Assembly (NCBI RefSeq): GCF_028583425.1
Contig: NC_072790.1
Location: 64,938,052 to 65,002,051, forward strand
DNA: 64,000 nucleotides
Reading direction: 5' to 3'
Origin: Eublepharis macularius
Taxonomy: Eukaryota; Chordata; Lepidosauria; Squamata; Eublepharidae
Of this stretch, positions 14,701 to 64,000 are shown in pieces. Numbering within the stretch: position 1 is the stretch's first letter; each line of letters begins with the position of its first letter. A program made the translations under genes and the position numbers. A model generated the notes under the pieces. The model made no database searches and was not told the origin of the DNA. It was given only the letters and a program-made list of their open reading frames with translations.

Positions 14701-17700
14701 AGGCCAACCCTGCTTAGCTTCTGAGATCTGACAAGATCAGGCTCACCTGGGTTATCCAGGTCAGTGTTTATGTAGAATAGAAGATGTCATATTGAACAGC
14801 AGATACTTTTACCAAGCTGTTAAAGCAAGAAATAGTACACATAGAGGTACTTGTCAGGAAAGGAGTTGTTTTTCCCAAGGGAATTTACCATTTCATATAA
14901 AATTGCTAGGACTTAAGTCCATTCTGATACATGAGAAGTCCATAAAACATACATGATTGCTATATGGGAATTTTCTGGGTACAGCCATAATGTGCTAACT
15001 GCTAAATACTACTCTGTTTTTCTGTAAATCATTATCTAAGATAACAGAATATGTTAGATGTTCCCTGTTACTACTGTACAAACACAGGGCCCTAATGGCC
15101 CTGAATTCTCCAGCCTCTAGTCAAGCTGTGGATCCATTAGCAATATGGATGAAGAATCTGAGAAACCTGAGACAGTGTATGGGGGGGGGCAGAATGTAAA
15201 AACAGCAGTTTTGTGAGGAGGCTTGGAAACTTCATAGAATTCCTCATAGGTACTACAAGTGCAGAAAGTGCTTTGTGATAGCTGGGGAGGGGTCCCCATA
15301 AAACTCATGTCTAGTGTGTGCAGTCTGGCTTAGAGATTCCCTGAGCATTGTAATTAGTGTAATGTCATACAAGAAAATAATAACTTCGAAAATTAATCAG
15401 TCAAGATTCTAATATTTTCCAATGGAATATGGGGGGGTATACTCATATGTAACAGTGCTCTCCCTTAAGCTCAATTAATTATTGTACTGTGTATACAATT
15501 TCAAACATACTCAGTTTACCTTCTGTAAAAGACTTAACACATTTAAATAAATCAAAGTCCAACTGTAGCTTCTGATCCCAGTAATCATAAAAAGGTTTCC
15601 ACCCACAAGCAAAGTTGAGTTTAGATAATCAGGTAAGTTTCAGTAATTTGGCCACCTGCCGTACTTTGTTGAAACATATTTTAACATTTAAATGTTTTAC
15701 ACCCTTTCTTTTGGCAGTCCCCGAGTATTGTATTCTTATAGGGCCTTCAGAGCTTGTTTTATACTGCCTATAGTTTTGGAATTCCCTTTCTCTACTTTCT
15801 TTAGGGTATTAATTACTTGTAACATTATTTGCTACTTTGTGTCCATAAATACACCTTGTGAAGTCTTGAGGGACATATATAAAATAACACTAAAGTCCAG
15901 TTGAAATAAAGAACAAAATCCCATCTTCTTATCAGCCTGTAACACTGGGCTGTATGAATTGCTCCTGCAATACTTACAAAAGATGCTCAGGATGTGACCA
16001 TGATAAATCTTGAGCAGCAGCCCTCAGTGTTTGGCTCCCCGTATTAAATGTCCAGGCTTGATTCATGCATGGTACTGTTGACTGGCTTCTCTCACTTGAG
16101 TCACTTGAAACTACTTGTTCTGAAGAAATGTTATGGTGTGTAGCAGCTGACTGCTGATAGAAGCCAGGCTTCTTTTTTGTTCTGTTTTGCAAGAATTGAT
16201 TAGAAACTTACTGTATGTGGTGCATTTTGACTTTGATGCCCACTGCTCCATAAAATCTTACCATCCTACCTGTTTTCCTTTGCTGGCAATGCGCTGGAGT
16301 ATAGATTGAGAGTGGGGCCGATGTGTGGATTAGCCCTGAGGACTAGTTAACCTTTGCTCAATTCTTGTTTGCTAGTACTGCATTTGAAGCAGACTTTTTC
16401 AGCTCATGTTGCCTTTGCATTCCCTTGCAGATGTCATGGAGACCCCACTTCCTTTGCCTTTCCCAGCCTATGCAAAGAATCTTTTAGTCTCCTTGTGCAA
16501 AGAAGTTCCATTCCAAGTAAAATGTACGTCCTGCCATCAGGAATTACGTTCTCATGTGGAGCTAACAGCACATTTCAGGTTTGTGAGAATCTTACCACTT
16601 GTAAAATGTGACTTCATATGTCTTTCTAAACATCTGGTGAATATTAAGCCCATCTTCGGTTCTTGTGTGTCTTTTGTTTCTTCTTCCATCTTAAGCATGG
16701 AGATAATGGGTTATGTAAGACCAAAAGAGTAAAGAGAGCTGTGGATGGTCAGCCAAAATGCTGATGTGTATTTTTGCTGCTGGCAGAACAGTAATGTGCA
16801 GTGTTTCTTCTGTATTTGTGTGTATACCTTTCTGCCTTTTAAATGGACAAGAAGACAATCATGTACTGTTTCCCAGAGCAATGAACCAACTGCAATTCAT
16901 GATTTTAAAGGATTCTGACAGGCATTTGAGATGTCTACTCCAGGAGATGGAGGCAGTCCATGGGACATGGGTGACTGTGGTAGGAGGGTATGGGTAGTCT
17001 TAAACTGGATTTAAAAGTAAATTATGCAAAGCTGGTATTAAGAATTAATATTGATTGCTTTTTAGTTTAGAGTTAGGAAAATGTTTAGAGTTACAGTTGT
17101 GAAGTCAATTTTCTTTTGGTTTTTTTCTTCTTCAATTATAGAACTCGTTGCCGTAATGCTGGTCCAGTAGTTCTGTCAGAGAAGACTATCTCCCAAGTTG
17201 CTGAAATATTTAAAGCAAAAGGTTTCTGTCAGAGGTGTAATGAGCTGCTTGTTGATGACAATCATATCAGCCAGCACAATTGCAAAACCTTGCACGACAT
17301 TAAAATTCTCACCACAATGGAACAATCAATCTTGATATTTTGTCATACCAATATGGGGAATAAAAATTACCTTAAAGACAGAAGACTTTTTAAGTCTTCT
17401 CCTCTTAAGAGATCTTTGACCATAGATACCTCTCTTAATGATCAGATTGAAGCTATTTCAAAGCGAAAAAAGGATTTGGAAGACAAAAGCCAAGAGTTTT
17501 GTAATACCCATGTCGTGAAAACCTGGACGTGTGAATGCTCCCTGTCATTTCCTTCTGAGGAATTAGTAGAGAAACATATTTTTTCTGCAAACAGAATATG
17601 TCACAAGTGTGCTGTGTGTGGAAAGCTTTCGGAAGATGCAAGCATCATCCGTTTGCATATGAGCCGTTTCCATGGAGGAGCGCACTTAACTAACTTCCTT

Positions 17701-20700
17701 TTCTGGTGTCAGGCCTGCAGTGTAGGTCTTCAGAAAGGGAGTGATGTAATGGCACACATGACTGAATGTCATATTGGGCACAGCTACTTCTGTGAAAAAT
17801 ACTGTACTGAGGATGAGCTTGCATTATCTTCTAATAGACTCACAGATACCTTCTGTAACAATTCTCTTGAGACTGAAAACCAATCTTTTGTCCCTATGGA
17901 GTTGTCTCCACCTTCAAGTCCAATGGATCTGGCTGAGAAAACTTCTCACCAAGGAAAATGGCAGTGCTGCTTGTGTGAGGAAATCTTTGACTCAGAAGAT
18001 ACTGTGAAACAGCATTGCATGTCATTAGACAGCCATCATTTTCACAGGTACAGCTGTGACTTATGTAAAGTTACATTTCGGAAAACAGAAACACTGTACC
18101 GACACTGCCAAGATAGGCATAGCGAAATTGTACAGATTAAATACTTCTGCGGATTTTGTGGTGACCTCTTTTTTGATACTGAGGAGGAATTTTTAATTCA
18201 CTTCAGGAGTTTCCATAGCACAGATTACGTATGTTTGTCCGAGACAGCAGAAACATCTATCAAGAACTTTGAGATGGTAGAAGAAAGCAACCTTCTCAGC
18301 TGTGGCTGTCGAGAGAAATATGCTTCCAAAGAAAATAGGAAAGCAGATTATAAGAAGTGTCAAGAAGCTATGCTGGCAAAAGGAAACCTGTGGTTTCGCT
18401 GCACTTTGTGTTCTTCAACAGCACAAAGCCATTCTGACATGGTTATTCATCTTGCGTGTCACACAAGTGACAAAAGTAAAGAAGAACTGTATGTTGTGAG
18501 GTGTGGAGCCTGCAACAAAAACTTCAGTGGTCTTACATTAGCCCATCAGCATTTTCATAGCAAGCACTGCTTCTCACAAAAGCCCAAGTTAGTCTCTCCA
18601 GCAGAAAGCAAAGTCTTCCAGTTTTCTGCCAGTGGATCTTGTGTAGATAAGAAGCCTGATAAACTGAAGCTTTCAGCTGCTTTGACTACACGAAGTTCAA
18701 AATCCCTTTCTCCAAAGAAATCAGGATATAAGAAGGAAGAAGTGCCTGGCCAAGGTTGGTAGACATTGGGGTGTGTATAATTGCCCAAGCTAACAGGCTT
18801 TTGAGAGTCTTATGTAACAGGTGTCTTCTCTTTTCCCATTCCTCAAGGAATTTGTCAGCAACACGGTTAATGACTGTCTTTGTGCTTGTGCAACCTCTCA
18901 TGTGGTGTTAACGAACACATTTAATGGCATGCTTGTAGGGGCAGGGGCGCTCTTTGCCCTGCTGCTCACAATTCACTATCTCCCTTTGCCAAATAACTGT
19001 CCAAACCCAATTGCACAGCACATCAAGTTAGGGGAAACTTTGCTATTGAAAGAGCTATTGGATATAAAATGCTAACAGAGATTCTGTATTGAACAAATAT
19101 GCTTTATTTTTATGGGTTGGATTATATTGTTGCTAAAATGTGGTCGAATTGGATCCTACCATTATTTCCATGGGTGCGAGAGGTAAGTGGGATGATCATC
19201 CTTGATTCCCCTTTTTACTGCAACCCCTCCCCCTTCCCTCTTAACAAGGGCTTTTTGTCCATGAAGTATCCCCAGTCATGAGCCTTGCCTATTTGGGTCA
19301 AAAGGATTGCCAGGGAAAGGGGAATTATCTACTTGCACCATTAGAGAGCTGTTATTACCCAGTGCATACATAGAACTGTTTTGAAAGTAGGCTGAAGTAT
19401 GGATGTCAGTATCTGTGATGAAACATAAAATACATTTTGATCTCTTTCCTCCTAACCTAGATGATGATCTTCCTGATCTAGATTACTTGCGCACCATGAC
19501 ACACATTATAATGATGGATTTAGATAACTGGGGAAACCTCTTCCATCAATTGCCTGCTACTCTTAACCAGGGGACATTTATCTGGGGTTTTCAAGGTAAG
19601 GGAATGAGTTAACTGTTCAGGCATTACAATGAAAGCTTAATAGAATGAGCAGTGCAGTTTTTAGTATCTGACAAAAGAAGGAAAGTAAGATCTTGTCTGT
19701 GTTCTACATTGTACTTTCCTTTGTTGTAAGCCCAGGTATGTCCATTTATATTATCACAAACACACTACCGATTCTTGTTTTCTGTCCTCTCCTTCCCTCG
19801 TTAACTGCCACCTTGCTCCATACCTTTGACTGCCCCCCCTTTTTTTTAATACCTGGTTTTCAGGATTGTTAGGAATGCATGTCATGATCTCACATTTGGG
19901 GGGGGGGGAGGGGGGAACGTATTCCTGAGATGATGGATGGATCATCAAATTCTGTAAGTTGAAAGTGCTGACATGTTATCAGGGCTTTTTTTCAGCAGGA
20001 ACGCGGGGGAACAGAGTTCTGGAACCTCTTGAAAATGGTCACATGGCTAGTGGCCCTGCCCCCTGATCTCCAGACAGAGGGGAGTTTAGATTGCCCTCTG
20101 CGCCGCCGAGCAGCACGGAGGGCAGTCTAAACTCCTCTCTGTCTGGAGATCAGGGGAGCGGGGCCACCAGCCATGTGACCATTTTCTCTGAGGGCAACCC
20201 ACTGACTTCCACCACCTCTTTTCCCAGAAAAAAAGCCCTGCATGTTATTAAAAGATTCACAATTAAGGAACAAGTGGGTTCAGGGTCACTGCAAAGAAAA
20301 CTCAAAGAGATGCAACGTTTAACTGTGAACAAGCCCGTGTTATATATAATTTATCACTTTTTTGCTTTAAAAGTAAATCTGTATCTTTTATACTAGACTT
20401 TGATTAGGGTGGCTGATGAAGTTGATTAGATGTTACTTGGCCACTTCTGAGCTGGGAGCAATGCACAAATTTCCACACTTGTACTTCAGTCTGATACACA
20501 CACACCTCTTCCTCTAAGTTTCTTGTTAGTGTATTATTCAATATATATTTCAACCATGTATAACCTTTTTCTGTTTCTCAAAAAATGTATATTACGTTTT
20601 ATAGTTTTTTTTAGTGACATTTATATTTTCCTTTTTGCCCGTCCCTTCTCCTTGTGATGCTTTCTAACAATGGCTCCTTTCTTATTTCATTGTTTAGGTG

Positions 20701-28915: not shown

Positions 28916-31900
28916 TTTTACTGTCTGAAGAAGACAATTTGAAACATGCTTTACTAGCAACCGTAATGTTCACTGTCCGTCTTCTGTGCAGCCCCACATG
29001 GGGACTGCGCCTGCGCAGGCCTGCCGACCGGATTTTTCTTTTCTAGCAAACATCCATTAGGGGGCGCCCGTCTGCCCAATGCGACTGTGCGGCTTTTTCC
29101 GCCCGACGTCGCCCCCTTCACCCTCAGTTTCTTCTTTGCCGCCGACCGGTGAAGATCTAGCTGTCCACTGTGAAGAAACGCCATTTTGTGAGATCGTTTG
29201 TTTTTTTCCAAGGATGGCTGAGAAAGCGCTGTTTAAGCGCTGTTCGACCTGTTCGACAAAGATGACGAGAACGGATGGCCATTCCGTCTGTCTCGAGTGC
29301 TTGGGTGAAGGACACATCGTCGAAAAGTGTGAGCATTGTCAACGCTTCACGCCTAAGGCCAGGGCTGAGAGGGCAAATAGATTGAATGCCTTACTTTGGA
29401 GAAGGGCTATGCGGGCTTCGGGAGCTGCGGATGCCCCTCAGGGACCACGACCAGTGAGCGGGACAGTTGAACCTCTTTCAGTGGTTGAGAAGTCTGTTCG
29501 TAGCTCCACTTCCACCCCTCGGTCCCGCTCCCTGGGTCGGTTCCGACGAACTCCAACTCCAATCTTGGATCCGAAAGACACCTCGGGCTCCTCTTTGGAT
29601 CGCAAACATCCTCCTAAGTCGGATCCAACTCGGAAGCGACGACATCGTTCCAAGTCTCCGGCAAGGTTGGAACCGCCCTCTACGCCAACCCCAAAGGTGC
29701 AGAGAACTTCATCAGATCTGAGCATCCTGACTGGCTCGGTTCCGAAGTCATCGGACCCTATACCGTCGGTTCAGAAGCCTACGGAGTCGACTCGCCCTAA
29801 ACTCGGCGCGAAGAATAGTTCCATATCGGAGTCTAAAGCTTTGGATCCGTTGCCTAACTTAGCAACACCGGATCCGGTGGACCAGAGTCGAGACACCGAC
29901 CGTGATTTAGCCTTCCAGGGAGGGAAGAAGGCTAAAAAGAAGTCGAAGCACAGACAATTGACTTTGGTCCAAACTGACGAGGTGCTCTGGGAGAAGCCCA
30001 AGACCCCTTCTCCGCACCTGTCATGCCATTCCTCTGCTGATGACGGTGACCTGCCTGCCGCTCCACCTCTTGTGGCCCATAGGTAGTCTGCTGGTGACTG
30101 TACTGGTATAGAGAATCTACCTTATCAATTGTCGAGGAGAGATTATGAACAAGAAGGCTCCTTCTATGCAAGGTCTCACCGATCCTATTCCCCGTCTCTT
30201 GGCAGAGAGTATCGGGGTGACACTTGGAGTGAGTTCTCCCGCTATGGTTCTCCCGGACGGGGTTCACCTTACCAACAGCCTGGACCTCACCAAGATCCAA
30301 GCCCTAGTCCTCCTTCTGACCCATCACCTGAGGACATCATTATTGGGACTGGTCGTATTTCCCCGTCGGAAGACTACCGGCTCTACACAGAGCAGATAGT
30401 TCGAATGGCCCGCTCTTTGGACATTGAGATTTCGGCTGTAGATCCGAAACCGAAGGATAAGATACCACAATATGTCAAGTCTGGGAATCCTCCCACCATT
30501 GCATTCCCATTGACTGTGGGATTAGTAGAAATCATTACCACGATCTGTGAAAAACCAGCCTCCGTTTACCCTACATCTCGTAAACTGGAAGCTCTATATA
30601 AAACTAGAGATGATGTCTGTGCGTACCTCTTTGCGCATCCACCACCTTCTTCCCTCATTACAGAGGAGATGCAGGCCCGTCAGCGCTAGGGGTCTCATGC
30701 CGTAGCCATCGACAAAGAGAGCAGGAAGTTGGATTCACTGGGCAAGAAATTATACTCGTCTGCTGCCCTGACGCTCAAAATATCCAACTACTCGGCGATC
30801 ATGGGAGCCTATCAAATTTTTCTGTGGAATCGCATGGCGGTCTTCCTGGAGAAACTTCCTGCTGACCAGAAAGTGTTGGCTAAAGTAATACTGGATGAGG
30901 CTTTACGACTGTCACGACAACAAATTAATGCTGGTCGTGACACAGTTGACACATCTGCAAGAGCATTGGCATCTTCGATCGCGCTTCGCAAACACTCGTG
31001 GCTTCGCACAACTGCATTACCTGTCGAGACATGAAACAAGGTGGAGAATCTACCTTTTGAAGGTCAATCTCTATTTTCATCAAGAACGGAAGAGTACCTG
31101 TCGCAAAAACGTAAGGATCGGCTGACGGCCCGATCCTACGGGATACTCCCAACCAGGCAATTCACCAAGAATCGATACCAGTATTGTTCTTCGCAGGGAT
31201 ATCGTGGTTGACAAGAGAGATACCAGCCGTATCCACGTTTTGGTTCCTACAGGCAATTCCAGCCCCCTGCAAATTCTTTCCAACGCAGGAGACCTAGTTA
31301 CCACCCACGTCACAGTCAACAAGGTCCCGATACCAAAGAGTCAGCAACTCAACCTAAACAGTTCTGGCTAGAATTTGAACAATCTGTTGTGTTTGGAAAC
31401 AGATTGGCTCAGTTTGCCTCGGCATGGGCAGAGATTACCCGTGATAGTTGGGTGCTCAACTTTGTTACAGTTGGTTATAAAATTCAGTTTGATGTTTACC
31501 CGGTGTTGTCTCTTCCTGATTATGCAGTGCAATCCTCTTCTGATAAGTTGCAGACGGAAGTTATAGCGCTTCTGCAGAAGGGAGCAGTACAGGAGGTTCT
31601 TCCTCAGGACTCCCCCATGGGTTTTTACTCTAGGATGTTCCTTGTAGACAAAAAGGATGGCCGTGTACGACCTATTTTAGACCTGAGATAATTGAATATA
31701 TTTGTTCTCGTTAAATGGTTCAGAATGCTTACCTTGAATACAGTCCTCCAGCTAATGCCCGAGGACATGTGGTTCGCCGTCCTGGATCTCAGGGACGCAT
31801 ACTTCCATATTGCCATCCATCCTGACCATAGGAAATACCTTAGGTTCCTTTGTAAGAGTAAGGCCTACCATTATCAGGTACTCCCTTTTGGACTGTCAAC

Positions 31901-34528
31901 AGCCCCCCGAGTTTTTTCTAAATGTATGGCTGTTGTAGTTGCATATGTAAGGGAACAAGGTTGTACAATCTATCCCTATCTTGATGATTGGCTTTTGGCA
32001 GCACCCTCTGCTGACGCACTTCTGGTCCAAATTAATAAGGTGATGCTTATCTGCTCCCGGTTAGGACTCTTGGTTAACCTCAAAAAATCTAATCTTACCC
32101 CGTCCAGGAGAATACTGTTTATTGGTATGGAACTGGATGGTGATGTAAATAGAGGTTTTCTGCCCTGGGAACGTGCATTAAAAATTGGCAGGATGGTGAA
32201 TCTCTTTTCGAGATGTAGATTCCAGTCGGTGACTGCTATTCAGAGACTGCTTGGCCTTATGGCCTCTTCTACAGCAGTTACCCCTATGGCCCGGTTGCAC
32301 ATGCGACCTCTCCAACTGTGGTTCCTCTCAGTTCATGTTTTTGAACACGAATCTCAGAACAAGAGATATTCCATTCCTAGAGGGGTTCTTCGTTCCTTAC
32401 GCTGGTGGCTTAGTGAAACTAATCTCCTCAGAGTTATTGCATTTGGGTCCATCCAAACCCAGATCAAAATCTGGACTGATGCCTCCACTATAGGATGGGG
32501 AGCCCAATGTGGAGCCCTTAAGGCACATGGGGTTTGGTCAGAGCAGGAAAGGGAAGATCACATTAACCTGCTAGGGTTGAGAGCGGTCCGTTATGCCCTT
32601 ATTGTGTTCGCAGATACGCTGCAGCAGAAATCCGTTCAGGTGCTCACGGACAATTGCACCACGATGTTCTACCTGAACAAGCAAGGGGACACTACCTCCA
32701 AGGCTCTCTGCGACGAGGCCATTCGGATTTGGGAATGGGCCATGGACAGGGACGTGTTCATTCATATGGTCCACATTCCTGGCACCACAAATGTGATCGC
32801 AGACAAACTGAGTTGTATGTGGTTCGACAGTTACGAATGGACCATAGCAGACAACTACCTGAACGCCATCTTTTTGGACTGGGGGTTCCCAGAAATAGAC
32901 CTCTTTGCTTCAGAGGACAAGAAAGCTCCACAATTTTGCTCTAGAGGAGGCCTAGGTCGCCATTCCCTAGGGGACGCATTTCAAATTCGCTGGACAGGGC
33001 ACCTATTTTATGCCTTCCCTCCGTTCCCACTGTTATCTCGAATCGTCAGCAAAATTCAGAGACTTGGGCCTCACATAATTCTAGTGGTGCCTTTTTGGCC
33101 CAGACAAGCTTGGTTCCAACATGTCATGCAGCTTTCACAGGGGTCATGTTATCGGTTCACTCTGAACCCGGACCTTCTGTCCGACAAAGGGTGTTTTTTT
33201 TAAAAATATATATTTATAATTTTTTTTTTATTTTTAATTACTAACCTCAAAAACTACAAAAAAGGGGAAAAGGGAACAGGGGGAAAGGGAAGAACAACAT
33301 AAAAAACACACACTACATCTACAAGTATTGCATTCCATTCATAATACAATTATTTAAAGTTAAACTTTCTAATATGCTATTAGATTGGTAGATCTTATAA
33401 AATACGAACTACAGTCAGGATCAGGTCTTCTCCCTCCCTCCCCGCATCTCGGTCGCAGCTCTCTCTGAACAGCTACAGTAGCTGCGCTCACTCCCTCCTC
33501 CCCATTCCCCCCTTCAGATTCTAAATCCTCTCCTTGCTGGAACTCTTGATGATTAAACACAAAGTCCCTCAGCTGTACTTCCGATGTTATCGTGTAGGCT
33601 TGGTCTTTATAACTGAACCAGATACCTTCCAGAAATAACCATTTGTATTTTATTTCACGCTTCCTCAGAAGAGCTGCAAACCTTTTCTATTTGAATCTTC
33701 TTTTTCGAGCTAAAAATGGAACGTCCTTCAATATCTTAACCTTGTTACCCAGAAAGTCCAAGTCCACATTGTACGAATTATATAAGATGGTGTCCCGAGT
33801 CTTCTTAGATGAAATATCAATAATAATCCCACAAGGCAGCTGGCGCTTCGTTGCATATTTTTTTTTAAAAAAAGTTTTTTATTGGGTCAGAACATTATTA
33901 TTTTTACATTACATTCAATTTCCCCCTAATTTTTCGTTTCTAACCCCCTCCCTTTCCCCCCCTTTTGTTGACTTCCAACAGCTTTCCCACCCTCTGTCCC
34001 TTTTCCCTTACTTCTATTAAATTCCTCTGTCTAAAACAAATATACATTCTCCATTATATTAAGCAGTACATCTTTAACTCCTTTACTTATTATACACCCA
34101 AACTGTACGTCTTTAGATAAACAATTTATCCCATTTTCCAGTTTTGAGTATTTCTATATATCATAAACCTATATATCATAAACCATAAAAATTTCCCACA
34201 TTTAAATCAAACAATTTGATTTGTTCTCTATATATTACTCATTTCATCTTTTTATGGTAATTCTATATAACTCATCACATAATCAATCAATTTAACTCTT
34301 CTATGCATTCAGTTTGGTGCATATAAATCTTATCAAAGAAAGAAAATATTGTTAATTACTCAATCCTCATGCTTAAACCTTACCATTAATTATTCTCTAT
34401 CAATATTCTATCAATTAACCTTTACATATCTATATATATCTCAATCAATTAATCTAACTGCTTATAAATTCACATTTCTCTTCCTCCCCCGGTAAAGTCA
34501 CCCCTCTCTTTTATACTTTTATTATACT

Positions 34529-37500
34529 TCAGTAGTTCTCAAACTGCCACAGTTTTCCTCCCACCTCCCACTTCTTCTCCAGATATTGTTTCAGCTTCTC
34601 CCAGTCTGTGTTAAACTGCCCTGAGTCCAGATCTCTCAGTTTTCTTGTCATCTTGTCCATTTCAGCCATATACAGCAATTTGTAGATCCAATCTTCAATA
34701 GTTGGCACTTCTTGTACTTTCCATTTCTGCGCATACAAAAGTCTAGCTGCTGCAGTCATATAAAATATCAACGTCCTATGATGGGCTGGAATTCCCTCCA
34801 TTCCCAAGTTTAGCAGCAGGAGTTCTGAGTTCTTATTTATTTGAAACTGTAAAATTTCACTCATTTCTCTTATTATTTCCCCCCAGAACTGCCTAGCTAC
34901 CTCACACGACCACCACATGTGATAGAGGGAGCCCTCATGCTTCCTACATTTCCAGCATTTATTAGAAGTATTCAAGTTCCCTAGCGCAATCTTCTTTGGT
35001 GTCATGTACCAACGATAGATCATTTTGTAAATGTTCTCTTTAATATTAGTACATGTCGTTGTCTTCATTGTAGTTTTCCACAAGTATTCCCATGCCTCCA
35101 TTGTTATTTCTTTATTGAAATTTATAGCCCATTTCACCATCTGTGTTTTAACTATCTCATCCTCAGTATACCATTTCAACAGTACTTGGTATACCTTGGA
35201 TATTCTTTTCTTGTCTTCTTTAAGAAGGGTCTGCTCTAGTTCCGAGTTCTCTGTTCGTATGCCCCCTTTTGCAGAGTCCGAGTTGTATAAGTCTCTAATC
35301 TGTCTATACTGGAACCAATCATAGTTAGGTGATAGTTCCTCTTGCGTCTTTATTCTAAGTTTAGATACTTCAATTTTAGTTATATCTTTGTATGTTAAAC
35401 ATTGTTGTTCATTATCAACAGCTCTCGGGTCTATCACCTCATACGGAACCACCCACAAGGGAGTTCCTTCTTGTAAGTAAATTCTGTACTTCTTCCAGAT
35501 TGTATATAAACTTCTCCTTACAAAATGATGCAGGAACATCGAGTTGACCTTTACTTTGTCATGCCATAGGTATGCGTGCCATCCAAAAAATTTTTTATAT
35601 CCCTCTAGGGCTAATAGTTTCTTATTCTTTAGTGTCATCCACTCTTTTAACCAAACTAGGCAGATTGCATCATGATAAAGTCTCAGGTTGGGCAGTTGCA
35701 TTCCGCCTCTTTCCTTTGCATCTTGTAAAACTTTCACTTTCACTCGAGGCTTCTTGCCTGCCCAAACAAAATCTGATATCTTCCTCTGCCATTTTTCAAA
35801 TTGTTTAGAGTCTCTGATGATTGGTATTGTCTGTAGCAAAAACATTACTCTTGGTAGCACATTCATCTTAACTGCTGCAATCCTACCCAGCCATGACAAG
35901 TTCAATCTATTCCATTTGATCAAGTCTCTCTCTATCTGAGTCCATAATTTTTCATAATTATTCTTGAACAAATCTATATTTTTTGCAGTCAGCTCAACTC
36001 CCAAGTATTTCACCTTACTAGTTACTTCACAATCCGTTGTTTCCATTAACAATTGTTGTTTCTGCTTAGTCATGTTTTTGCATAATATCTTTGACTTCTT
36101 TTTGTTAATGAAAAAACCTGCCAAGTCACCAAACTCCTTGATCTTATCTATCACTTTTGGCATGTTCTCCAATGGATCTTCTACAATTAACATTATGTCA
36201 TCTGCAAATGCTCTGACCTTATATGAATAGTCCTTTATTTTTATTCCTCGTATTTCCTCATCTTGTCGTATTTGTATCATCAGAATCTCCAATACTAAAA
36301 TGAACAACAATGGAGATAACGGGCAACCTTGTCTTGTTCCTTTACTAATCGTCAATTTCTTAGTCAGTTCATCATTCACTACAATTGCTGCAGTCTGGTC
36401 TCTATAAATTTCTTTAATTACTCTGATGAATCTTTCTCCCAGTTGTAGCTTTTCCATAGTGGCAAACAAAAAGTCCCAGTTTAAATTGTCAAACGCTTTT
36501 TCAGCGTCCACAAAGAAGAAACCAACCTCTTTGTCACAACGCTTGTCATAGTATTCAATAGCATTAATCACTGTCCTTAGATTGTCTCTTATTTGTCTGT
36601 CTGGCAAAAAGCCTGCTTGTTCCTCCTCTACGGCTTCCGAGAGCCACCCCTTCAGTCTCTCCGCCAATATCTTCGCAAAAATTTTATAATCGTTGTTAAG
36701 TAATGATATAGGTCTGTAATTTTTCACGTTAGTCAGATCTTGGCCCTCTTTTGGGATCAATGATATATTCGCTTCACTCCAAGTGTCTGGAATCCTTTGA
36801 TCCCTAAAAACTCCATTCATCACCTCTTTTAGGAATGGTGCCAGTTCATTGGCCATTGTCTTATAAAATTTAGCCGTAAGTCCATCTGGCCCTGGCGCCT
36901 TTCCTAGATTTGCAGATTGTATTGCCTTGCTTATTTCCTCATCAGTTACTTCACTGTTCAACTTATTTCTCCAGGCTTCCGAGAATTCTGGAAGTTTAGT
37001 TTTCTCCAGATATGATGCTATTGATTCTTTGTTTACTTCTTTTTTATTATACAGCTTAGCATAGAATTTATAAAAGGCTCTACTAATGGTAGTCTGCTCC
37101 AAGTACGTTTTATTTTCTTCACAGATTTTGTTTATTATTTTCTTTTCCCTTTTCTTCTTCAATTGCCATGCCAAATATTTCCCAGGTTTATTAGCGCCCT
37201 CAAACGCTTTTTGATTCAGTCTTTTAAGGTTCCACTCCAATTCTTTATTACTCATTGCTGTTAGCTGTTCTTGAAGAATTTTGATTTCCTGGTGTATTTT
37301 CTTTTTTCCTGGTCTCTTTTTTAACTGTGCTTCTTTGGCTTTTATTTTCTCCTCGATCTCTTGTCTTTTCTCCTCTTTCTTTTTCCTTGCTCTGCCATTT
37401 AAGTCCATTAGTATGCCCCTTACAACCGCCTTGTACGCGTCCCAAACTTTGCTGGTTGGTACTTCTTTATTCACGTTGTATTGTATGAAAAACTTTGTCT

Positions 37501-38290
37501 CTCTTCTCAATATTTCCATATTCTCACTTTCCTGTAACAAGTCCTCATTTATTCTCCAGGCTTTCCTTTTTCTCCTTTTTCCAAATTTCCACATAATTGG
37601 GTTGTGATCTGAGCCTACCATCGGCATTATTTCTACCTCCTTAGTCCATAACGCTAAGTCTTTTGAGGCCCAGATCATATCAATTCTTGATAATGTAAGA
37701 TGCCTTGCAGAATAAAAAGTAAACTGTCTGGTTTTAGGATATTCTCTCCTCCATACGTCTTCGAGAGTCTCTTGTTGAATCAACTCAAAAAAAAGCTTTG
37801 GCAATAGTCCTCTTTTCTTTTGTGCTATTGTAGTCTTTTTGTCTAATTCCAAATCTGTCACTCCATTGAAGTCTCCAGCAAGAATTATCTGGTCATATAC
37901 AAGATCATCTAAATGCTTCCTTAAATCCTCAAAGAAGCTTTCCTTTGCACCGTTAGGTGCATAAAGTCCGACTACCAACACTCTCTTTAAATTCCAATTG
38001 CATTCCACTGCTACAAATCTAGCTTCCACATCTCTCATAACAAATTTTGGCTGCAGCTCCCCTTTTATGTACAACACCACTCCTCTTTTTTTCTTGTTGG
38101 AGGCTGCTACAAATTCTTTGCCCAATTTTCCAGATTTTAAATATTTTACATCCTGTTTTCTGATATGGGTCTCCTGCAAACAAACAATATCACATTTTTG
38201 TTTTAGTAGCCAATGAAAAATATTTTTCCTCTTATTCGGTGAGTTTAGTCCATTTACATTCCAAGATAATACTTTACACTCCATATTCAT
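34529..38290 (-). CDS. L1 ORF2 protein: endonuclease and reverse transcriptase
   Basis: 1253 residues without interruption, close to the ~1275 of mammalian L1 ORF2p. It nicks target DNA and copies L1 RNA by target-primed reverse transcription. The apurinic-type endonuclease (about residues 1-240) shows SWNVNGLNSP, LQETHI, LYAPNG, AGDFNGV, RIDMIW and GSDHNP. The reverse transcriptase has IPKEGQDLTNVKNYRPISLL, DAEKAFDNLNW (motif A), KGTRQGCPLSPLLF (motif B) and AFADDIML (motif C, near residue 695). The Cys-rich C-terminus has CWKCRKHEGSLYHMWWSC near residue 1110. All catalytic signatures I can check are present, so the copy may be retrotransposition-competent; this is inference. The first Met is chosen by the ATGA overlap with ORF1. 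Confidence 0.92.
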   Translation of the reverse strand: MNMECKVLSWNVNGLNSPNKRKNIFHWLLKQKCDIVCLQETHIRKQDVKYLKSGKLGKEFVAASNKKKRGVVLYIKGELQPKFVMRDVEARFVAVECNWNLKRVLVVGLYAPNGAKESFFEDLRKHLDDLVYDQIILAGDFNGVTDLELDKKTTIAQKKRGLLPKLFFELIQQETLEDVWRREYPKTRQFTFYSARHLTLSRIDMIWASKDLALWTKEVEIMPMVGSDHNPIMWKFGKRRKRKAWRINEDLLQESENMEILRRETKFFIQYNVNKEVPTSKVWDAYKAVVRGILMDLNGRARKKKEEKRQEIEEKIKAKEAQLKKRPGKKKIHQEIKILQEQLTAMSNKELEWNLKRLNQKAFEGANKPGKYLAWQLKKKREKKIINKICEENKTYLEQTTISRAFYKFYAKLYNKKEVNKESIASYLEKTKLPEFSEAWRNKLNSEVTDEEISKAIQSANLGKAPGPDGLTAKFYKTMANELAPFLKEVMNGVFRDQRIPDTWSEANISLIPKEGQDLTNVKNYRPISLLNNDYKIFAKILAERLKGWLSEAVEEEQAGFLPDRQIRDNLRTVINAIEYYDKRCDKEVGFFFVDAEKAFDNLNWDFLFATMEKLQLGERFIRVIKEIYRDQTAAIVVNDELTKKLTISKGTRQGCPLSPLLFILVLEILMIQIRQDEEIRGIKIKDYSYKVRAFADDIMLIVEDPLENMPKVIDKIKEFGDLAGFFINKKKSKILCKNMTKQKQQLLMETTDCEVTSKVKYLGVELTAKNIDLFKNNYEKLWTQIERDLIKWNRLNLSWLGRIAAVKMNVLPRVMFLLQTIPIIRDSKQFEKWQRKISDFVWAGKKPRVKVKVLQDAKERGGMQLPNLRLYHDAICLVWLKEWMTLKNKKLLALEGYKKFFGWHAYLWHDKVKVNSMFLHHFVRRSLYTIWKKYRIYLQEGTPLWVVPYEVIDPRAVDNEQQCLTYKDITKIEVSKLRIKTQEELSPNYDWFQYRQIRDLYNSDSAKGGIRTENSELEQTLLKEDKKRISKVYQVLLKWYTEDEIVKTQMVKWAINFNKEITMEAWEYLWKTTMKTTTCTNIKENIYKMIYRWYMTPKKIALGNLNTSNKCWKCRKHEGSLYHMWWSCEVARQFWGEIIREMSEILQFQINKNSELLLLNLGMEGIPAHHRTLIFYMTAAARLLYAQKWKVQEVPTIEDWIYKLLYMAEMDKMTRKLRDLDSGQFNTDWEKLKQYLEKKWEVGGKLWQFENY

Positions 38291-39069
38291 GGTTTTGTTG
38301 GTAAGTCTTTTTCATTGTCCTTAATAAATCTCTCCATCTCCCGCTCAGATCTGATGCGTTTTTTTGCCCCTCCAAACTCAAAGGACACTCCTTCCGGTAA
38401 CTCCCATCTGTACCTGATATTCATGTCCTTCAAAGTCTGAATTAGCACTTTATATTTTTTCCTGTCCAATAACACTGATCTGGGCAGTTCCTTCATTATG
38501 ATAATCGTCTTGCCATCAATCTCCAATGGATCTTGAAATTGTTTTGTCACAATCCTCTCTTTCATGTTTCTAGTTGTAAACTGCACAATCACATCCCTTG
38601 GTAATTTCCTCTGGGTTGCAATTCTCGAGTTCACACGGTACGCCACATCTAGGATAGCCACAATTTCCTCCTCCTCCTTCCCCAGGTATTCAGCCAACAC
38701 CTCAGTCATCTGTTCTTGCGCTGACTTCCCTTCCACTTCTGGCAGACCACGAAAACGAAGCTGCTTCTCCATGTGTTTGGTTTCTGCAACTGACATCCTC
38801 CCCTTCACCAGTCTCATCTCTGTTTGTTGCGTATCTATTAAATTCTCCATCGCGTCTTCTACTGTTTTAACTCTCTGCTGCGTTCCTTGTAATTCACTAC
38901 TAATCGTTTCCACGCCTTTTTTCACTTCTGACAGCTCCGACTTTACTGTCTGTGTAACTTCTTTGACCTCTTTAATAAGCTCCAATTTCGTGTCCTTAAG
39001 TTCTTTCATCATGTCTACAAGTTTTTTGTCCAGATTTTCTATTGCCGATTGCCACTCTTTTTTCGACAT
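38287..39069 (-). CDS. L1 ORF1 protein (RNA-binding chaperone)
   Basis: 260 residues. Family role: forms trimers on L1 RNA as part of the cytoplasmic ribonucleoprotein. Seen: an N-terminal heptad-rich coiled coil (about residues 10-100, with KELKDTKLELIKEVKEVTQT), an RRM-like segment (about 105-185, KQLRFRGLPEVEGKSAQEQM) and a basic C-terminal domain (about 185-255, with MKELPRSVLLDRKKYKVLIQ). The start codon is the first Met of the open frame (MSKKEWQSAIENLDKK). The stop TGA overlaps the ORF2 start ATG, suggesting termination-reinitiation for ORF2. ORF1 is shorter than the human ~338 residues. Confidence 0.88.
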   Translation of the reverse strand: MSKKEWQSAIENLDKKLVDMMKELKDTKLELIKEVKEVTQTVKSELSEVKKGVETISSELQGTQQRVKTVEDAMENLIDTQQTEMRLVKGRMSVAETKHMEKQLRFRGLPEVEGKSAQEQMTEVLAEYLGKEEEEIVAILDVAYRVNSRIATQRKLPRDVIVQFTTRNMKERIVTKQFQDPLEIDGKTIIIMKELPRSVLLDRKKYKVLIQTLKDMNIRYRWELPEGVSFEFGGAKKRIRSEREMERFIKDNEKDLPTKP

Positions 39070-41379
39070 CGTGGGGCTTGCTTTAGCTCGCTCCCACGAA
39101 TCTGCTCTCTTCCTTAGCTCCGTGGCGTATATTTAAACGTTTTCCTTTTTTTCAAATGTCCCAATCTTTGCCAAAATTAAATTTTTAAGTATCCAAAATG
39201 TCGGGCGTCTTTTCTCTATGGTTTCTCTATGTTGTTGTAATCCAAAATGGCCTACTTCCTCTTCCGCTGAAGCCGCGACCCTTCCCCTTTCAAAAATGGC
39301 GATTCCCTACTTCCTGTCCATCGGCAAGGGCCGCTTCTCTCCAGCCACTCTATTGTTGTTACGCACTTCCTGTCTCCCGTCTTCCCACAGCAGGTCTCGC
39401 GATGGTGTCTTTTTCCCACAGCTCCGAAACCACAGGTATTCAAAACAATAGTCCGATTTTTGTAATAACTTCTTTAAACTTAGTCTCTTTTAAAATACAA
39501 CTCCTGCCGAGTCTTCACCTCCTTTTCACTAGTCTGTTGCAGTTTAAAAATCTACTTTCTTTCCTCTCTGTTTTTGTCAATCTGTCCCGTTTCAAGAGAT
39601 AGCGATCTTTACCTTCTCTTCAACTTTCTCGGGTTGTAATCGCTGTTTCGATCTTGAATTCTCCTCTCGACTTCCCTCCCCGATCGAAGCTTGGGTATGT
39701 AGGTCTTATGCCAGCCGGATTGGCCCCAAAACTGCCGCAGAGATTATAGCCGACCCGTCGCAAGGTGGGACCTCAAGGATCGGGGGGGAGACTCATTGAG
39801 TAGAGCCCCCCCTCGTCCGAGATCTAGCTCACCCTAGGGTCTTGAGCGTTCTTTGCCTGCTCCCCGCCTGAGAGCAGTCGGCCGCGGGTTATTTTCACCC
39901 CTCCGGCCGGTTAAAACGGCAGTCCGGTCAGCTCCGCAAATGGAGCTGCGTTAGACCTCCATGAATCCCAAACCGGAAGTCGCTTCGTTGCATATTTTGA
40001 AGATGTCCGGTGGACTTCCAGAATATCACTTTTTAACTCTTCTTTAGTTGCCTTTGCGGATGATGCCAAAAGTTCCGACACCAAATCCTTTAAGTTTTCA
40101 CTTTCCTCCTCCTTCACATTCTGAAGACGCAATACCATCTGAGCATGATCCACTTGTAACCCTATCAATTGATTCTCCAAAAGCTTTACTTCTTTGTTTG
40201 TTGCTTTCATGAGTACTGCGTTTTCCCGAGCAGACTGCTCTGCCCCAGACGCTACTTGTCCGACAAAGGGGTTTGGTATCACGACCTACCCAAACTGAGC
40301 CTCACTGCTTGGCACATCCTGGGTCGGAAGGAATGTCTGTCAGAGTAGCTGAGATTTTGCTGAATGCACGTAGGGACACTACTCGCAGGTCATACTCTGC
40401 TAAATGGAAGCGTTTTGAGTCCTGGATTAGTGACAAAGGAGTGAATGTTTGGGATTGTCATTTGTCATCTGTGTTTGAGTTCCTACTGTCTCTAAAAGAT
40501 AGGGGACTCTCGAATAACTCTGTTAAAGTTTATCTAGCGGCCATTTCAGCCTTCCACCCTAAGATAGATGGGAAAACAGTTTTCTCCCACAGCCTGTCGA
40601 AGTCCTTTTTAAAGGGGTTGTATAACATGTTCCCACAAGTCAAGGAAATTGTTCCTCAATGGTCGTTGCAAGTAGTGTTAGCGGGGCTTATGAAATCACC
40701 CTTTGAGCCACTGGCTACTTGTGAATTAAAATGGTTGTTCTGTAAAGTGGTTTTCTTGATCGCCATTACATCTGCCTGCAGAGTTAGCGAGTTGGCAGCT
40801 CTAAGATCAGATCCTCCCTTTTTGAAGGTCCATCAAAATAAAGTGGTTCTGAGACCTGACCTTCGTTTTAGACCCAAAGTCTCTATTCAATTTCATACCT
40901 CACAAGACATTGTCCTGCCTATATTTTTTCCTGACCCTACTAATTCTGAAAGGGCCTTACATTCCTTAGATGTGAGAAGAGCTATTTTATTTTACCTGCA
41001 TCGTATCTAACAGTTTAGATGTGCCAAACAACTATTCGTTTGCTATTATGGGCCCAGGAAGGGAAAAGCTGCTACAGCTCAACCAATTTCTCGCTGGGGT
41101 ACTCAGACGGTTAAAGCTTGCTTCTTACATGCTAAATTACCATGTCCTTTGGAAGTAAAAGCTCATTCCAGTAGGGCGCAAGCTTCTTCTGCGGCCTTCC
41201 TTAGGGGAGTGCCTTTGCAAGACATCTACAGGGCTGCTACGTGGTCGTCTTCCGACACGTTCGCTAAGCATTATGCTTTAGATTTGTGGGAAAGAGGCTG
41301 CTGTTGGTCAAGCAGTGCTCCAGTCTCTTTTTCAATGAGAACACATGCCTGCCTCCTGGGTAAGTGGCTTGTGAGTCTC

Positions 41380-46894: not shown

Positions 46895-47436
46895 AAAAAC
46901 TCAGCATGGGTCTAGGTTCAGACGAGCGTATTTTTTCTGAGTACCTGAGGGACCCTCCAGGTTTACAGGAAAAAGTGAAAAGTAAAAATAAAAATGGAGG
47001 GTGGGGGTTGTGCCGATGATGTAAAGAAGTGCCCCCATGGGTTAGAAGTGAGCAGAAGAGAAAATGAAAGCTGCTGCTGCATGAGCCAGGTTGGTGAGGG
47101 CGAAGCTGGCGTCACTGTTGCCCTTGCCTTGCTGTGTGAACCACAGGAACCAAGAGGGAAGAGCTTCCTCAGTAAAACTGCACCAAACACAATAAAGGAA
47201 GCAAGCCGAAAAGTATATTGCCCTATACACAGTCTTACAATAATTTACAATTTACAATGAAGAATACACCAATGGAGAGCAGTTTAGTACATCAATATTA
47301 GGAGCAAGAAAAGTCCCATCAAAATTTCTTCAAGTATTCAACAGGTAAGTAGTTTTTAATAATCATGTCGCTGTCAGTTCATGTTATTTCATCCCGAAAT
47401 CCGTAGGAGCCGTTTGGAAACAATGAAGAACGCTGA

Positions 47437-47502
47437 GTGGCAACGAGCTTACCGGTCCAATCCTATTTGGCTCGTTTCATGACAAATCCTTCATCAGGCC
47501 AC
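47437..47502 (-). ncRNA. Hammerhead ribozyme, type I fold, in Penelope-like element
   Basis: Read on the minus strand. Helix I is GUGGC (47502-47498) with GCCAC (47441-47437). The core CUGAUGA is at 47497-47491, helix II is weak (47490-47479, AGGA/UCAU with a UUUG loop), and the core GAA is at 47478-47476. Helix III is ACGAGC (47475-47470) with GCUCGU (47448-47443), closing a 21-nt loop. U at 47442 occupies the H17 cleavage position. Every invariant core base is present. Only helix II is poor (one G-A mismatch). Confidence 0.8.
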
Positions 47503-48166
47503 CAACCTACGATTTATCATTAAAAGTCCATCATAGACTGTCTCACAACATCAAATAACAGAACTGATATTCAAAGGCACTCATTTATACTCACTATTTT
47601 CATTCCAACATGGTCTTAAGACGTGAAAGAAACCATCCAATTACAGAATCAGTATAAAGTGCATTCAAAGGTAACAGGGAGGTCATATCTAAGTTAATAA
47701 ATACTCTAATCAGGAGAGGATCCCATCCCCCTCCCCAAAAACCATTCATCACATCATTTCATTGGGTTCTGATCCTGAAAAGACCACCAACTATATGGAA
47801 TCTATTTCCTTAAAAAGTCAAAATCAGGATGGTCTCCTCATCATTGTTATTGCACATAATCCCCAAAATACACAAATCAGACAGCCCCACTACTCTGCGT
47901 ATTTTTCAAAAGCTAGTAAAACAAGTCAAGTCTCAAATACGAAATAGGGGAGCTACAAACACTCCCTCGGTTGACCAATCTATTCATATCCTACAATAGG
48001 CGAGAAGAGTGGGGGTGGGAAGATAGGGGAGGGAAAAAAGGGGGGAAATTGGAGAAGGGGGGTAGAGTAAGAGAATCAATTAATTAGGAGAAGGAAAGTG
48101 CTGAATGGGGGATGGTACCAGCTATCACTGGAAACCCGTCCCTTCCTATTTAAATTATCCCGGGGA

Positions 48167-48607
48167 TCACAAAAAGGCTGAATAGTCTACCTTAGTGTTT
48201 AAGCCCTGTGGAGCCATGGTGTTTAATCTAAAAATCCATCTGATCTCTGCCTGTAAAAGGCGACGTTTATTCACTCCAGGTTTGGATAACACCTCCAGTA
48301 TGGAGAACTTAAAGGTTTTGTCCCTGCCATGCGTCTGCCACAAGTTCTGGTGAAGTGTTGTCATTCCGCTATAATTTTTAACCCGTGACACGTGTTCCTG
48401 AATTCGCTGACGGATTGGCCAGGTAGTACAACCTACATATAGGCTGTGTGAACCAGGCAGCCACAGCCACAAGTGGGCTGCTTGGGTGGCCCACTTACCG
48501 GAAGAATATGGGAATTCCGCCCCCCCCATGACTCTTGCAGATCCTTTGCTCCTATCTGCTGGTTTTGCAATGTGAAATGTCCCTGAGTTACAATAGTAGA
48601 AGAGCAC
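48167..48607 (-). pseudogene. Penelope-like GIY-YIG endonuclease domain, N-terminally truncated
   Basis: The frame is open for 146 codons to a normal stop. Recognised signatures: SLYVGCTTWPIRQRIQEH (GIY-YIG motif, with YVG and the catalytic Arg region), LHQNLWQTHGRDKTFKFSIL, and LLQAEIRWIFRLNT followed by PQGLN, the conserved Glu and C-terminal block of Penelope endonucleases. The polymerase part is missing upstream, so the first Met is not a true start. The domain itself shows no interruption. Confidence 0.75.
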
Positions 48608-48612
48608 ACAGT

Positions 48613-49429
48613 TTTCACCTTCGAAGGCTTCCTGAATTAAGAATCAGCATTCATTTCTTGATACCATGCACATAAATGGGACTAAAATCTTTGCTGTGCT
48701 CATGGCTAAGTGGTTTTTTCCCAGTAGCCAACAAAAACAATAGTATTCTGTACACAGAATATCGCTTTAATCAAAGAATTTCTTTGGGCTTATTTCCCTC
48801 AAGGTGCTTCTTTTAAAGAGCTGAGAAACTACTGCAGTGCAGTGAGTGGGATGAAGGTTTTTCACTTTGTCAAATATTGGCATTAAGTCAAGGGAATGCA
48901 GCTACTTGTATCCCATTAAAAAAACCCTGCATTTAAGATAGGTATAAATGAAGACTAGCTCTGAACATCTGCAATAAGTAAGTTTTTTTAAAAAAAAATG
49001 AGAGCTGATAAACAAGCATTTTTTACATCAGGGCGGTGGAACCATTATGAACCTGTATTGGAGGAGATGTTTGTCATGTGAGTCCAAATTCACTGAGAAC
49101 CTGTTTTCAGTGCTGTAGATGGAAAGTGTGTGAAGTACCCAGGGAATCTTAACAGAACCCGAGCCTCCCCACCGAAGCGTTACTAATAACTGATGAATTG
49201 TCTCTTTTTCCTGGTTGGATTTCGATTTTGCACAATGACATTTCACCATCTACTCGCTGTATGTCGTGGCCTTTTGACCCGACTTCTGCCATCCACCCAC
49301 CCCGTTCACATGACATGACGGGGTAGTCAGAATCTACTTGTTGCATTTTTACAAGTCCGCGAATGACTCTGCTGCAACAACGCGCTGCAGGTCTCAGTAC
49401 CATAAATTTGCGATTTATTTTTCCGAGGG
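48613..49429. other. Intergenic stretch upstream of BAG2
   Basis: No repeat or ORF I can name. GC content rises toward the BAG2 promoter. Confidence 0.45.
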
Positions 49430-49694: not shown

Positions 49695-61417
<11,723 letters not shown>

Positions 61418-63417: not shown

Positions 63418-64000
63418 CAGCGATGGCGAACCTATGGCACACGTGCCACAGGCTACTGGCGTTCCAGTAGCTCTGAGCAGAGATCACATGGGGTTTGGCC
63501 CTGCCCACGTGATTCCTTTTCCTCAAGGCTTTCTTCCTGCTGCCCGTCTCTTTAGCAGCAGGAAGCAGAGGCAGCAGCAAGGCTGCTGGGGCTGGCTTTC
63601 TACAGAAGAGTAAGCTTCTTTTATTTAACTTGCTTTACTTTCAGTCGTGGCTCTTGAGCGAGAGAGAGAGAGCCTGCAAGCAGGGCTGCTGGTCTAAAAG
63701 AAGGGCAAACTGCTTTGATTTAACTTGCTTTACTTTCAGTTGTGGCTCTTGAGTGAGAGAGAGAGGGAGAGTGCTTACAAGCTGCTGGTCTAAAGAAGGG
63801 CAGACTGCTTTGATTTAACTTGCTTTACTTTCAGTCGTGGCTCAAGAGAGAGAGTGCTTGCAAGCAGGGCTGCTGGTCTAAAGAAGGGCAAACTGCTTTG
63901 ATTTAACTTGCTTTACTTTCAGTAGTGGCTCTTGAGTGTGAGAGTGCTTGCAAACTGCTGGTCTAAAGAAGGGCAAACTGCTCTGATTTAACTTGCTTTA
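63418..64000 (+). mobile_element. hAT-like element end followed by minisatellite, cut by window
   Basis: CAGCGATGGCGAACCTATGG with CACACGTGCCAC at 63418-63450 looks like a terminal inverted repeat of a hAT family common in amniotes. The sequence then passes into tandem repeats. The right end lies outside the window, so neither the TSD nor the other inverted repeat can be checked. Confidence 0.5.
63605..64000. repeat. Minisatellite, ~85-96 bp units, at least four copies
   Basis: Units beginning ATTTAACTTGCTTTACTTTC start at 63622, 63718, 63813, 63901 and 63986 (spacings 96, 95, 88 and 85). Each contains GTGGCTC, a variable (GA)n run, TGCTTGCAAGC-like sequence and CTGCTGGTCTAAAGAAGGGC. The array continues beyond the window. 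Confidence 0.9.

Follow-up and report, generated by a model that had tools for sequence, protein, structure and literature searches.

The locus considered here raises the question of whether a 66-nucleotide (nt) segment of the Eublepharis macularius genome is a hammerhead ribozyme belonging to a retrotransposon, and whether it can cleave itself. The segment is on the minus strand of a 64,000-nt stretch of contig NC_072790.1, which was analysed as a whole and is designated the window; all coordinates are counted from its first base. The segment is very probably a three-helix type I hammerhead ribozyme motif in the flanking repeat of a Penelope-like retrotransposon, a motif that would be expected to self-cleave in intact copies.

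The window was scanned on both strands with a script using a type I hammerhead descriptor. The sole match with helices I and III of at least 5 base pairs (bp) was at 47437-47502, and a looser setting gave one further weak site on the plus strand, at 59612, in two registers. Read on the minus strand from 47502 to 47437, the sequence is GTGGC-CTGATGA-AGGATTTGTCAT-GAA-ACGAGC-(21 nt)-GCTCGT-T-GCCAC. By direct reading and by the script, the hammerhead core is complete in the window copy, and helix I has five standard pairs and an outer G-U pair. The original prediction, made from the sequence alone, had proposed a three-helix hammerhead at this place with a complete core and perfect helices of 5 and 6 bp. 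The sequence reading, the descriptor script and the recurrence of the motif bear this out, and the outer G-U pair is an addition to it. The predicted fold of helix I includes a single-U bulge, a possible partner for a tertiary contact with loop II.

Considered on its own, the motif is improbable to a moderate degree only and is not decisive. In 1500 simulated windows generated with a first-order Markov chain, the descriptor found 8 matches with helix I of at least 5 bp and helix III of at least 6 bp, and 32 matches with both helices of at least 5 bp. The 8 strict matches speak for a chance match in unrelated sequence, an explanation whose probability is negligible; it was rejected because the motif recurs genome-wide and across families of elements.

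The genome searched was that of the source animal itself (2.24 Gb, 72 contigs), and every relative described below comes from this single genome. In the loci designated L001-L050, blastn revealed 45 distinct places, the window included, that match the motif region. The core CUGANGA...GAAA is kept in all 45 places and the full motif in 43, the two exceptions being broken copies in L027. When the genome was searched with a pattern for the 5' half of the motif, there were 265 matches, against 0 for the reversed control. Forty pieces, hand-chosen from 100 listed places of the 265, were fetched by the 5' half alone. GCCAC was in place in 40 of 40, and the 6-bp helix III was fully paired in 37; in L100, L107, and L123 it has a single mismatch. 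The motif was also found downstream of other endonuclease frames, in 37 of 40 pieces of 1.2 kb (20 of 20 and 16 of 20 with the descriptor, L072 being added by the covariance model R1 at 44.9 bits). With a second endonuclease query it was found in 8 of 8 pieces, scoring 32.6-43.4 bits with R1. These 40 and 8 flank pieces were hand-chosen from tables of 150 matches each. R1 matches the window at 47432-47511 with 90.8 bits, a score that is not independent since the window copy is itself a row of the model. The motif pattern had no match in contigs of viruses or of prokaryotic genomes.

The motif is conserved beyond the flank that surrounds it. When the 1,029-nt flank from the window was compared with the 40 flank pieces by blastn, 7 aligned broadly, 29 over the motif, and 4 not at all. 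Of the 29 alignments over the motif, 27 end exactly at 47437, and three of these 29 pieces (L064, L065, and L077) have weaker matches also at 48002-48075. In these 29 of the 40 pieces, the motif is almost the sole alignable part of the flank. Because the flank alignments are mostly confined to it, the motif is the part of the flank best kept by selection, across families whose flanks can hardly be aligned.

Two sets of copies were compared in more detail. Alignment A1 contains 55 distinct copies, whose rows were chosen by a pattern fixing TGGCCTGANGAA (or one variant), so that invariance is partly by construction; the two broken L027 motifs and a broken motif in L077 are counted in. The second set contains 95 distinct motifs, chosen by a pattern in which most core letters and parts of helices I and III are fixed. 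Among the 55 aligned copies, position 17 is T in 52 and C in 2, and a single broken copy has A. In the 95 motifs, whose pattern excludes G at this position, it is T in 91 and C in 4. Loop II varies among copies in both sequence and length. Loop III is strongly conserved, mostly 21-22 nt long, and longer in a distant clade.

This conservation could also be explained by a DNA or RNA recognition site of 66 nt, used in protein binding, template choice, or as a promoter, that merely resembles a hammerhead. Such a site would account for the strong conservation of loop III, which catalysis does not need, and for sequence being conserved more than pairing. The free variation of loop II is against it. 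So is the right geometry of the core and both helix strands, which is kept in copies retrieved by blastn or with the 5' half as the only query. A recognition site is considered very improbable. The hammerhead motif is the reading followed below.

The host element and its relatives

The element looks Penelope-like by its reverse transcriptase and tandem layout, and it is so named partly for its general resemblance to such elements. The window copy is single and truncated, not tandem. An open reading frame (ORF) at 48167-48643 on the minus strand ends in sequence of the GIY-YIG endonuclease type, with its stop at 48167. From this stop to the motif, which is in the 3' flank, there are 665 nt, in agreement with the original prediction. 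The GIY half of the endonuclease frame is missing because of 5' truncation, and the reverse transcriptase part is absent from this copy. The window ORF gave no Pfam GIY-YIG match at E ≤ 1; motifs of the types VVYLLQ and LYVG are visible by eye in the endonuclease frames. The 3' end of the element is between about 47178 and 47130, varying with the relative compared: the homology stops at about 47178 with some relatives and at about 47130-47148 with others.

A genome search with 47380-48240 gave at least 49 scored matches, several of them as inverted pairs. The frames of the relatives reach 764 amino acids (aa); some relatives are in tandem and others are inverted. RVT_1 is above its cut-off in the full-length relatives L047, L093, and L094 (E = 2e-9, 5.8e-10, and 2.9e-8). 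PF01541 (GIY-YIG) matched weakly, under the curated cut-off, in three of six relatives scanned (L043, L091, and L092; E = 2.7e-4, 2.9e-4, and 1.5e-3), and gave no match in the other three, L047, L093, and L094. The RVT_1 matches and the tandem units support the Penelope-like setting that had been proposed.

In L047, the hammerheads are 3993 nt apart, once per unit. L094 and L069 are adjacent pieces of one array, in which the hammerheads are 4363 nt apart. The endonuclease frames in the tandem relatives are spaced 3958 and 4363 nt. The first methionine of the upstream frame follows the predicted cut by 322 nt in L047 and by 307 nt in L094. The downstream pieces begin about 20-25 nt ahead of the endonuclease stop, and the motif starts at a distance of 422 to 1113 nt from that beginning.

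From this layout we infer self-cleavage, processing into units and a use for the products. In intact tandem elements, one hammerhead precedes the first reading frame, and the next follows the endonuclease at a distance of 400-1,100 nt. Cuts at both sites would free a single RNA of unit length (3993 or 4363 nt in the two families), bearing a 5'-hydroxyl and a 2',3'-cyclic phosphate. Such an RNA could serve expression, circularisation or mobilisation.

Several other observations concern these relatives. L047 (4667-5521, minus strand), L093 (1129-2037), and L094 (1399-2169) each have a separate frame upstream, measuring 256-302 aa from stop to stop; the L047 frame has no Pfam match. In these elements, the upstream frame overlaps the reverse transcriptase frame in another phase, which may reflect a frameshift, an intron or a separate ORF1. 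Copies in L043, L044, L046, and other pairs are inverted, with their 3' ends outward and roughly 0 to 4 kb between them. In L048 and L049 (C2:216.08-216.09 Mb), two hammerhead-bearing flanks are inside a long tract whose frames look like low-complexity repeats.

Pairing, folding, and activity of the motif

Standard pairs occupy 94.5% of the 880 pair cells in the 55 copies of A1 (helix I 93.9%, helix II 90.5%, helix III 97.9%), and sliding the 3' partners by 1-3 columns lowers the pairing to 33.4-66.0%. Two-sided changes are present in 2 of the 16 pairs, in 3 cells: G-C to A-U in helix II (two rows) and C-G to U-A in helix III (one row). The compensatory changes that the original prediction had suggested looking for in other copies are scarce, and they are not above the level of shuffles.

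A series of results weighs against a self-cleaving hammerhead. When the 3' letters were shuffled, 250 of 500 shuffles reached the same 94.5% pairing, because the columns hardly vary. The observed covariation was matched in 210 of 500 shuffles for pairs, 99 of 500 for cells, and 85 of 500 for the covariation score, and no covariation measure in the 55-copy alignment was above the shuffles. RNAalifold on A1 recovered helices I and III, paired part of the core, and did not recover helix II. Among ten copies folded singly, L003, L007, and L033 gave the hammerhead helices and L087 nearly did so, while the other six, the window copy among them, adopted other minimum folds. The folding z-scores of the ten ranged from +0.08 to -1.85. 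Helix II is limited to three contiguous pairs in 43 of the 95 motifs, and a bulge is needed in more distant copies. An A-U pair at the base of helix II, where G-C is usual, is less favoured in hammerheads, and so is U instead of C at position 17. R1 found no motif at E ≤ 10 in L074, L088, and L089 of the 40 flank pieces. An Rfam search of 181 bases around the motif gave 7 matches at E ≤ 10, none of them to a hammerhead family, and no Rfam hammerhead model reached E ≤ 10 on the window copy or on the loci of 21 relatives. Two further points concern the use of the cut and come from a study of the Anolis Poseidon element: hammerhead mutants left insertion in vitro unaffected, and RNA sequencing data from Anolis had no ends at the predicted cut (PMC11167929).

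Covariation, RNAalifold, and folding z-scores are unusable as evidence here, and the argument is carried by conservation, not by covariation. The hammerhead class at this locus is one that the Rfam models miss. An Rfam scan of the whole window gave nothing above the gathering cut-off, and chance matches below it, to small nucleolar RNA and other models, overlap the hammerhead motif. The original prediction was to be abandoned if a background covariance score was combined with genomic copies that break helices I and III without compensation; the Rfam score is at background, but the copies mostly keep their helices.

The activity of the window copy is a separate matter. Its helix II is weak, with a G-A mismatch among A-U, G-C, and A-U pairs. 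In the 45 places, the mismatch position is C in 41, T in 3, and A in the window copy only. The G-A mismatch is private to this one copy, and it was rejected as a family trait. Energy folding, which does not include tertiary contacts, gave a hammerhead-constrained fold 7.2 kcal/mol above the minimum for the window copy, with a probability of 1.8e-6. In L002, L003, and L007, the minimum fold consists of the hammerhead helices and one extra pair across the core, and the constrained fold is 1.3 kcal/mol above it, with a probability of 0.057-0.073. The activity of the window copy is doubtful because of the private helix II mismatch and the fold probability of about 2e-6, compared with about 0.06-0.07 in the three relatives. 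Most likely, this truncated insertion with a single hammerhead is a decaying remnant that would cut poorly or not at all.

For the intact copies, it is quite possible, at somewhat less than an even chance, that the hammerhead fold is real and that even these copies cut only with the protein of the element or as a dimer. The Anolis Poseidon hammerhead gave no cleavage without protein (PMC11167929), and according to a review Penelope hammerheads may self-cleave as dimers (PMC7761336). By energy, the active secondary structure has a probability of only about 6-7% in the intact copies. The weakness of helix III is the stated reason for the need of a dimer, however, and helix III has 6 bp here; the Anolis paper also refers to a Penelope hammerhead that had earlier been seen to cleave itself at 3-25 mM magnesium (PMC11167929).

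Feature coordinates and the remainder of the window

Table 1. Coordinates, strand and basis of the features of the element copy and its hammerhead motif in the window.
Feature	Coordinates	Strand	Basis
5'-truncated Penelope-like element copy	about 48443-47139	-	homology limits to relatives
GIY-YIG-type endonuclease frame, C-terminal part (YIG half kept, GIY half lost)	48167..48442	-	homology, sequence
Type I hammerhead motif, helix I to helix I	47437..47502	-	sequence, descriptor script
Outer G-U pair of helix I	adds 47503 and 47436	-	sequence
Core CUGAUGA	47491..47497	-	sequence
Helix II (A-U, G-A mismatch at 47489/47480, G-C, A-U), loop UUUG	47479..47490	-	sequence
Helix III ACGAGC / GCUCGU, 6 bp, closing 21-nt loop	47443..47475	-	descriptor script, alignment
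Palindrome ACCGGU in loop III	47451..47456	-	sequence, motif comparison
Predicted cleavage site 3' of U17 (47442)	47441..47442	-	position from core alignment

Other repeats and one host gene were recognized in the window. A long L1-like pair of frames is present at 34529-39132 on the minus strand. The larger frame, of 1260 aa, has endonuclease and reverse transcriptase domains (RVT_1, E = 2.1e-39), and the smaller one, of 281 aa, is upstream of it. The pair is located between pieces that look DIRS-like by eye (29061-33203 and 40213-41010), as if inserted. Another region that is DIRS-like by eye, at 6230-10500 on the plus strand, matches reverse transcriptase at 7364-8410 (E = 3.9e-18) and also contains an overlapping frame of 978 aa, which has no Pfam match at E ≤ 0.001. 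A large exon-like frame at 17089-18762 on the plus strand, opposite to the strand of the hammerhead, matches the zinc fingers of ZNF451 (E = 8.2e-30) and belongs to a host gene. An inverted pair of sequences is present at 51685-52151 and 55144-55600, with a complementarity of 76% over a 407-nt stretch and of 90% over one of 51 nt. Its frames look by eye like 3' fragments of long interspersed nuclear elements, and the frame at 51628-52152 has no Pfam match at E ≤ 1. A 95-bp minisatellite of 4.4 copies, at 63599-64000, reaches the end of the window.

Relation to known hammerheads

Minimal type I hammerheads of animal Penelope-like elements were reportedly described by Cervera and de la Pena in 2014 and by Lunse et al. 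in 2017. Reviews describe Penelope hammerheads as minimal variants lacking helix III or tertiary contacts, with an unknown role (PMC7761336, PMC6155905), and another source calls them rare minimal variants (PMC7229834). The motif of E. macularius resembles these minimal hammerheads in being of type I, in being located in a pseudo-long terminal repeat (pseudo-LTR), and in being repeated in tandem copies (PMC7761336, PMC6155905, PMC7229834). It differs from them in helix III, which they usually lack and which here has 5-6 bp and a conserved loop. The family is a helix III-bearing variant of the Penelope hammerhead. The original prediction had placed the motif where hammerheads are known in Penelope pseudo-LTRs. 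The place is the same, but the architecture, with three helices and a conserved loop III, is unlike that in the reviews.

The element is similar to Poseidon of Anolis carolinensis (PAc), a Penelope-type element of a reptile with reverse transcriptase, GIY-YIG endonuclease, pseudo-LTR, and hammerhead (PMC11167929). Compared with PAc, helix III is complete here, and in two families about 307-322 nt separate the predicted cut from the first methionine of the upstream frame, which is downstream of it. The hammerheads of axolotl and other amphibian retrozymes are also of type I, and their dimer-favouring class has a palindromic helix III loop (PMC7229834). In the amphibian retrozymes, a helix III of one or two pairs carries a tetraloop, and the hammerheads are in tandem repeats of 330-350 bp (PMC7229834). 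In contrast, the E. macularius motif has a longer helix III and a six-base palindrome in a large loop, and it belongs to a protein-coding element. The Rfam hammerhead families share the same core, yet none reaches E ≤ 10 on these loci. No three-helix Penelope hammerhead from a vertebrate was found in the titles and abstract beginnings searched, a coverage outside which most subscription papers fall and in which an existing report could be missed.

The loop III palindrome is shared widely among the copies. CCGG is present in the helix III loop of 87 of the 95 distinct motifs, and a self-complementary hexamer, counting G-U pairs, in 81. The flanks of CCGG are A-T in 58 motifs, G-C in 19, G-T in 6, and others in 12. 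These motifs are related copies, not independent events. By eye, no partner of the CCGG palindrome other than itself was seen. The palindrome (CCGG with A-U, G-C, or G-U flanks) is a putative site for a kissing-loop dimer, a speculative proposal that is rather unlikely to be correct. If it were, two hammerheads would dock by loop III; they could be those at either end of one unit (in cis) or belong to two separate element RNAs (in trans). The docking would couple two cuts or pair RNAs for mobilisation, and the loop-loop dimer would replace the double-hammerhead dimer of the minimal Penelope hammerheads.

A genome with at least 265 copies of the 5' half, a fully paired helix III in 37 of 40 sampled copies, and tandem elements with long frames provides natural candidates for cleavage as monomers. 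With such copies, the role of the ribozyme in Penelope mobilisation could be tested.
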